Positions 2,838-3,523 of a stretch of DNA of 64,000 bases are shown here, piece after piece. Origin of the DNA: Candidatus Methylopumilus rimovensis (GTDB lineage: Bacteria > Pseudomonadota > Gammaproteobacteria > Burkholderiales > Methylophilaceae). Position numbers and translations under genes: made by a program. Location of the stretch: positions 868,001 through 932,000 of the forward strand of contig NZ_CP040986.1 in the NCBI RefSeq assembly GCF_006364615.1. The letters run 5' to 3'. A model generated the notes under the pieces. The model was given only the letters and a program-made list of their open reading frames with translations. It was not told the DNA's origin and ran no database searches. The number at the start of each line of letters is the position of its first letter. Positions within the stretch are counted from its first letter, which is position 1.

Positions 2838-2850
2838 AAGCTTTAAAAAC

Positions 2851-2879
2851 AAAAAAGCCCGCATATAGCGGGCTTTTTT
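2851..2879. terminator. Bidirectional intrinsic terminator
   Basis: The sequence AAAAAAGCCCGC - ATATA - GCGGGCTTTTTT forms a GC-rich stem flanked by A and T runs, so it works in both directions. It can end the Gfo/Idh/MocA gene on the plus strand and pqqA on the minus strand. Confidence 0.9.
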
Positions 2880-2892
2880 AAAATCTGAATAA

Positions 2893-2964
2893 TTACTTAT
2901 TCATTACATACATTGTAACTTCGAAACCGAAACGCATTTCAGTAGCAGCTGGAGTTGTCCACAT
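2893..2964 (-). CDS. pqqA: PqqA, precursor peptide of pyrroloquinoline quinone
   Basis: A 23-residue peptide beginning MWTTPAATEMRF and ending GFEVTMYVMNK. It has the PqqA hallmarks: MW at the start, the RFGFEVTMY core, and the Glu15 and Tyr19 pair (spacing E-x3-Y) that PqqE cross-links to make PQQ. An AAAAGGA ribosome site lies 7 bases before the ATG, and a strong terminator lies just downstream. PQQ is the cofactor of methanol dehydrogenases (XoxF, MxaF) and other quinoproteins. No pqqB, C, D or E is in this window, so the precursor is encoded away from its processing genes, as in other methylotrophs with detached or multiple pqqA copies. The gene is short enough to be missed by ORF callers. 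Confidence 0.9.
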   Translation of the reverse strand: MWTTPAATEMRFGFEVTMYVMNK

Positions 2965-3136
2965 GATGTTTATCCTTTTATTAAGTTAATAAGAAATTAC
3001 TTAAATGTAATCTTACTCGGACTATAAAAGTAAACACCTTTAGGATCATGAATGAGGTCTCATGAAAATCATGAGAGATAAGGCACTAAAACAATAAATT
3101 TATATTAAAAACTATATAAATCAATAACTTATAAAA

Positions 3137-3205
3137 CTACACCTTAGCTGGCTTAGGTTGTGGTTTTTTACCTTTAGATTCTTTTCTCTTATCTTTACTA
3201 CCCAT
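3137..3205 (-). CDS. 22-residue lysine-rich micropeptide, unknown function
   Basis: The frame encodes MGSKDKRKESKGKKPQPKPA followed by KV and a TAG stop. Nine of the 22 residues are lysine or arginine in the first 14, and the tail is proline-rich. The start is preceded by AAGGAGGT five bases upstream, a perfect complement to the 16S rRNA 3' end and one of the strongest ribosome sites in the window. That is the main reason to believe it is translated. I recall comparable short basic peptides with KDK/KK-rich starts in other betaproteobacteria, but know no function. It lies between pqqA and an 89-residue unknown gene on the same strand. Confidence 0.6.
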   Translation of the reverse strand: MGSKDKRKESKGKKPQPKPAKV

Positions 3206-3253
3206 ATATGACCTCCTTAATAGGTTGAATAAATGAACATTGTATACGAAAGG

Positions 3254-3523
3254 CTAGGGCTTCAGCCGCTTCTTTATTTCTTTTTCGTACTCTGGAAAAT
3301 ACTGCGAGATTACCTCTAAATCGAACTGAGAAAGAATCGAATTATTCGATTCTCGCTCCAATAAAAACTCAAACGAAGCTTTGATTAAACTCTCATGCGA
3401 GACCTTACCATCCGTTAGTGACTTATGGAAATCATTTGAAACATGAACCTCATGTTGTGTAGTCGATTTTAATTTCACCGTGACTTCAAAATCAGAATCT
3501 TTAATTAATTTAATCGTAATCAT
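3254..3523 (-). CDS. Conserved hypothetical protein, 89 residues
   Basis: A small soluble protein rich in charged residues. The N-terminal half (ITIKLIKDSDFEVTVKLK, then TQHEVHVS) looks like beta strands. The C-terminal half is helical, with SHESLIKASFEFLLERES and a closing segment YFPEYEKEIKKRLK. No catalytic motif, metal site or signal peptide is visible. It follows a 90-residue membrane-protein gene by 21 bases on the same strand and precedes the lysine-rich micropeptide gene by 48, so these may be co-transcribed. I do not recognise the family well enough to name it. Confidence 0.6.
   Translation of the reverse strand: MITIKLIKDSDFEVTVKLKSTTQHEVHVSNDFHKSLTDGKVSHESLIKASFEFLLERESNNSILSQFDLEVISQYFPEYEKEIKKRLKP

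Follow-up and report, generated by a model that had tools for sequence, protein, structure and literature searches.

Organization of the locus

The 22-codon gene described here lies on the minus strand of the window, by which we mean the whole 64,000-nucleotide stretch of Ca. Methylopumilus rimovensis DNA that was analysed, and is accompanied by the following features:

3254..3523, minus strand, gene for an 89-aa protein upstream of the small gene, less constrained (pN/pS 0.19)
3239..3246, minus strand, candidate promoter -10 element TATACAAT, lying about 33 nt upstream of the ATG
3211..3218, minus strand, Shine-Dalgarno site AAGGAGGT, 5-nt spacing to the ATG
3137..3205, minus strand, 22-codon small-protein gene, product MGSKDKRKESKGKKPQPKPAKV, ATG at 3205
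3058..3076, no strand assigned, palindrome TCTCATGAAAATCATGAGA upstream of pqqA
2893..2964, minus strand, pqqA (MWTTPAATEMRFGFEVTMYVMNK), 23 aa, one of three copies; a neighbour outside the unit
2850..2880, minus strand, intrinsic terminator after pqqA

The sequence-only reading had placed a 22-codon frame at 3137-3205 behind a perfect Shine-Dalgarno site at 5-base spacing, and both statements are accurate: the length and coordinates are correct on the minus strand, and CATAT separates AAGGAGGT (3218..3211) from the ATG. Its remark that few genes in the window have so strong a site also holds, as AAGGAGGT occurs once when both strands are scanned, gives the longest anti-Shine-Dalgarno match of the window among frames of at least 15 codons, and in 60 first-order Markov windows never preceded an ATG frame of at least 20 codons at a distance of 4-9 nt. 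At the same place in congeners stands a weaker site (AAAGAGGC, AAGAGGC or AAAGGGTC), so that a Shine-Dalgarno-like site is present throughout with varying strength, and in the second genus discussed below the ribosome site is AGGAG, AAGGA or weaker. The perfect Shine-Dalgarno is thus a feature of this strain, while the peptide is what relatives keep, and support for the small gene rests on conservation rather than on the Shine-Dalgarno. Upstream, TATACAAT resembles a promoter -10 element; its TACAAT core is unchanged in all 13 congeners while the rest of the 48-nt spacer is variable. No good -35 for this element was found upstream of the small gene. A promoter role is probable on this pattern, and the small gene probably forms a separate transcription unit.

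Both neighbours carry features of their own. The 89-aa protein matches no Pfam or NCBIfam model; its relatives at 55-60% identity come from MAG contigs labelled Nitrospirae, Hydrogenedentota and Micrarchaeota, with 43% identity in the second genus, where the genomes read that hold this homologue have no small peptide adjoining it. On the other side, pqqA lies nearby on the same strand, as had been pointed out, at 2964..2893 and 172 nt downstream of the small frame, and no terminator-like site was found between the two. The block upstream of pqqA (2965-3060) is highly conserved among congeners, includes a number of short inverted repeats, TTATTAACTTAATAA among them, and is possibly a structured leader. 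An operator-like TCATGA...TCATGA palindrome or spaced repeat precedes most pqqA copies examined in both genera (L126, L118, L127, L128), and because similar repeats stand before other copies, the palindrome TCTCATGAAAATCATGAGA probably belongs to pqqA's own control region. Across 13 congeneric genomes, pS is 0.06 for pqqA, against 0.41 for the small peptide and 0.54 for the 89-aa gene; pqqA is nearly frozen synonymously across congeners, yet the three copies in this genome differ by synonymous changes.

Conservation and selection within Ca. Methylopumilus

A search of 187 Methylophilaceae genomes recovered the frame in 14 of the 16 congeneric genomes, 95-100% identical and in single copy each. 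The two genomes without a match also lack the neighbouring 89-aa gene, indicating that the locus is missing from these incomplete assemblies; every genus genome in which the locus was found (14/14) carries the frame. Start and stop are kept in all 13 full-length congeneric copies. These intact copies vary at 15 sites, of which 13 are third codon positions, and the minimum of 18 substitutions required produces a single amino-acid change, K13R, where random placement would be expected to yield 12.9 and gave no fewer than 5 in 200,000 draws. Correspondingly, pN/pS over the 13 copies is 0.007 for the small gene versus 0.19 for the adjacent 89-aa gene. Judged by this substitution pattern, the small frame is a translated and strongly constrained protein gene. 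The sequence-only reading had named conservation in relatives as the check on the frame, and the frame passes it strongly; the KDK start belongs to the conserved half of the peptide, and the perfect ribosome site is not conserved. No covarying RNA structure was found over the leader and frame with RNAalifold, and searches of the published literature yielded neither a small-protein product detected by proteomics or ribosome profiling nor a match to the peptide string SKDKRKE.

Relatives in a second genus and wider searches

Relatives of the small peptide are carried by 14 of the 31 genomes of a second genus, which is probably the marine OM43 group. Ten of these encode an MG-type form, MG[SN][KR]DK[KR]KE[ST]KGK followed by a PKK-type tail, and the remaining four a shorter relative, MADKSQKKKESKGKPKKK or near it, of which one genome (G015) has two copies. 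The conserved half is the N-terminal one with its KDK start, and codons 1-13 of the MG-type copies give a pN/pS of 0.095. The gene was not detected in 17 of the 31 genomes, several of them complete, and it therefore appears dispensable in this genus and not universal.

The other 22 Methylophilaceae genera yielded no detectable relative, and neither did an order-level sample of 399 genomes (with a pattern that required KPKK and would miss the window's own peptide) or, apart from weak chance matches, a class-level sample of 369 genomes. On inspection, the profile matches in the class sample and the extra pattern matches in the second genus proved to be chance or parts of long proteins, and the pattern matches L077-L079 belong to a large conserved protein, falling in its Lys-rich tail. 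Plasmids, phages and viral contigs gave no match, and a phage or plasmid origin was rejected on that account. Likewise, the peptide matches nothing in Pfam, NCBIfam or PDB. Since short basic peptides are hard to find, absence outside the two genera means that the peptide is undetected there, not that absence is proven; as far as detected, it appears restricted to two small-genome Methylophilaceae genera.

Genomic position and mobility

In the Ca. Methylopumilus-group loci read, the small gene is flanked by the 89-aa gene and pqqA. Copies in the second genus occur at five or more non-homologous sites: some are flanked by UPF0029 and Cys/Met-metabolism genes or by tautomerase and SOUL genes, some lie close to a histone-deacetylase-family gene (directly adjoining a tRNA-Lys in two genomes), and others follow a VTT-domain gene or an inositol-phosphatase gene. 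In most of these contexts the next gene downstream is convergent, in some a tRNA stands downstream, and the pqqA copies of these genomes lie elsewhere, unlinked to the small gene. In L021 and L024 the small gene abuts a tRNA-Lys(CTT). The window has a tRNA-Lys(CTT) at 874-949, whose sequence contains the 20-nt repeat reported at the flexible island fGI-2 of Ca. Methylopumilus (PMC10872708).

For the short form, two genomes (G025 and G008) share a common block spanning -82 to about +200 relative to the ATG in two different surroundings, with an alignment score of 147 against a shuffled maximum of 23.5; this block includes the promoter-like upstream region and a 3' hairpin. At loci L059, L066, L067 and L072, a relative has 18-19 codons and a strong 3' hairpin, and a block of about 280 bp recurs in two unrelated places, which suggests relocation of a minimal gene. 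The persistence of the small gene while its position changes, together with the movement of one form as a block, favours a product that would act in trans.

Proposed function and alternatives

The window peptide has a net charge of +7, a pI of about 10.5 and no hydrophobic core, with almost no hydrophobic residues, and across its forms the family is 41-50% Lys/Arg, with a net charge of +6 to +7 and a GRAVY of about -2. This composition fits a nucleic-acid- or ribosome-binding role. We tentatively favour, as a reading with an appreciable chance of being correct, a stand-alone, trans-acting, disordered basic micropeptide whose partner would most likely be rRNA or the ribosome. The peptide would be made from its own short transcript, would probably lose its initiator Met (Gly stands at position 2), would remain unfolded, soluble and cytoplasmic, and would use the KDKRKESKGK half and the KP-rich tail to bind a polyanionic partner. 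With rRNA as the likeliest partner, it would be a lineage-specific ribosome-associated micropeptide, like bTHX, bS22 or bL37 in action and not homologous to them, that may fill an rRNA pocket or help assembly.

Several observations are in keeping with this proposal. Purifying selection acts at the amino-acid level (1 of 18 substitutions non-synonymous; pN/pS 0.095 in codons 1-13 of the second genus), and the near-invariance of the N-terminal half, which goes beyond basic character, makes a specific binding site likelier than loose coating. The single copy, the invariant TACAAT box and the Shine-Dalgarno-like site in congeners count in its favour as well. The ribosome-associated role is ranked first because lineage-restricted small basic ribosomal proteins are known (bS22, bL37; PMC10085706). 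Moreover, the small gene is retained in genomes of about 1.3 Mb that are described as selected for gene loss (PMC6794327). Against the proposal, the peptide shows no relation in sequence to any family of ribosomal proteins or to any solved chain, it is without aromatic or hydrophobic anchors, and the gene appears dispensable where it went undetected in the second genus. We consider it unlikely, in this stronger form, that the peptide is a new ribosomal or ribosome-assembly protein of streamlined planktonic Methylophilaceae, among the smallest known in bacteria, whose gene relocates as a promoter-ORF-terminator unit.

A DNA- or polyphosphate-binding micropeptide, in which the KPKK/KPAK tail would act in a histone H1-like manner and loosely coat AT-rich DNA or polyphosphate, is possible at rather long odds. 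The peptide composition speaks for it, and the KPKKEKAP tails of the second genus recall H1-like tails such as that of AlgP (PMC9239181). However, the constrained half is the N-terminal MGSKDKRKESKGK, and loose binding would allow K/R swaps and length drift in a sequence that hardly varies among congeners.

Many characterised bacterial small proteins are trans regulators of a specific protein, and an enzyme, a membrane complex or a chaperone partner could be the target here. The near-invariance suggests a specific interface and the gene is independent of position, but the peptide has hardly any hydrophobic residues with which to engage a membrane or a hydrophobic groove, and no conserved neighbour points to a partner, so that we regard this alternative as unlikely too.

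It had also been suggested that the frame regulates a neighbour by translation, and its location in this genus, on the pqqA strand and 172 nt ahead of that gene, would suit a cis-acting leader peptide or translational switch. This suggestion fares poorly: the small gene of the second genus occupies several unrelated places away from pqqA, mostly without a co-directional downstream gene, and fixed linkage to a downstream gene, expected of a leader peptide, is absent, with a convergent gene or a tRNA following in several contexts. Nor is there a conserved RNA structure of the attenuator type, either across the frame or downstream of it; conservation lies in the N-terminal half of the peptide, and pqqA has a separate conserved upstream block with a TCATGA palindrome. 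Attenuation of pqqA by the small frame was rejected given the unlinked second-genus copies, and we judge the cis-acting reading as a whole very improbable. An RNA element at the frame was likewise rejected, as Rfam matches were sub-threshold and mostly centred on the pqqA terminator, with no covariation. Finally, that a frame so short arose by chance over a conserved DNA or RNA element has next to no probability, being already contradicted by a substitution pattern concentrated at third codon positions, by the lack of covarying structure and by the recurrence of the amino-acid motif in other genomic contexts.

The wider interest lies in what has been kept. Bacteria of the Ca. Methylopumilus type have among the smallest free-living genomes and have shed much ancestral content, and still they keep almost unchanged a 22-codon gene that would escape annotation pipelines with a minimum length. 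Abundant methanol-eating lake plankton may harbour a component of the ribosome or nucleoid that has so far escaped notice.

Comparison with known systems

Among the systems compared is bTHX (30S ribosomal protein Thx, TIGR04560), which resembles the small peptide in having about 26 residues, in being basic and in beginning MG-x-x-D-basic-basic; the small peptide, however, lacks the aromatic GKIWRGTYGKYRPR core of bTHX. The TIGR04560 model does not match the peptide, with none of 41 family genomes over the cut-off, and in a BLOSUM62 alignment to a bTHX sequence confirmed against PDB, 28% of shuffled peptides score as high (8-9% for second-genus versions). Membership in bTHX was rejected on these grounds, the likeness being no better than composition.

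Other systems share some traits. Attenuator leader peptides of the TrpL, TnaC and SecM type resemble the small frame in being short and, in this genus, upstream of a metabolic gene; the small gene differs in having no fixed downstream gene or structure and in its N-terminal conservation. The PqqA precursor is likewise a short peptide (23 aa) encoded in the adjoining gene, but its E-x3-Y cross-link motif is, on direct reading, absent from the small peptide. Type I toxin peptides have a hydrophobic membrane segment that is absent here (GRAVY about -2, net +7). Histone H1-like Lys/Pro-rich tails of the AlgP type share the KP/KPKK composition, whereas they are long degenerate repeats and the small peptide has 22 almost invariant residues.

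The small lineage-restricted ribosomal proteins bS22 and bL37 of Actinobacteria were identified from cryo-EM density, and one of them carried no annotation beyond hypothetical until a structure revealed it (PMC10085706). The small peptide is likewise very small and lineage-restricted; it differs in matching no solved chain in PDB up to E 10, in a ribosome link that is predicted only, and in a basic fraction of 41% versus 55-65% for bS22 and eL41 (PMC10085706). Set beside these systems, it represents, on comparative grounds, a new family of small proteins that is specific to its lineage and belongs to a general kind already known, with a putative function.
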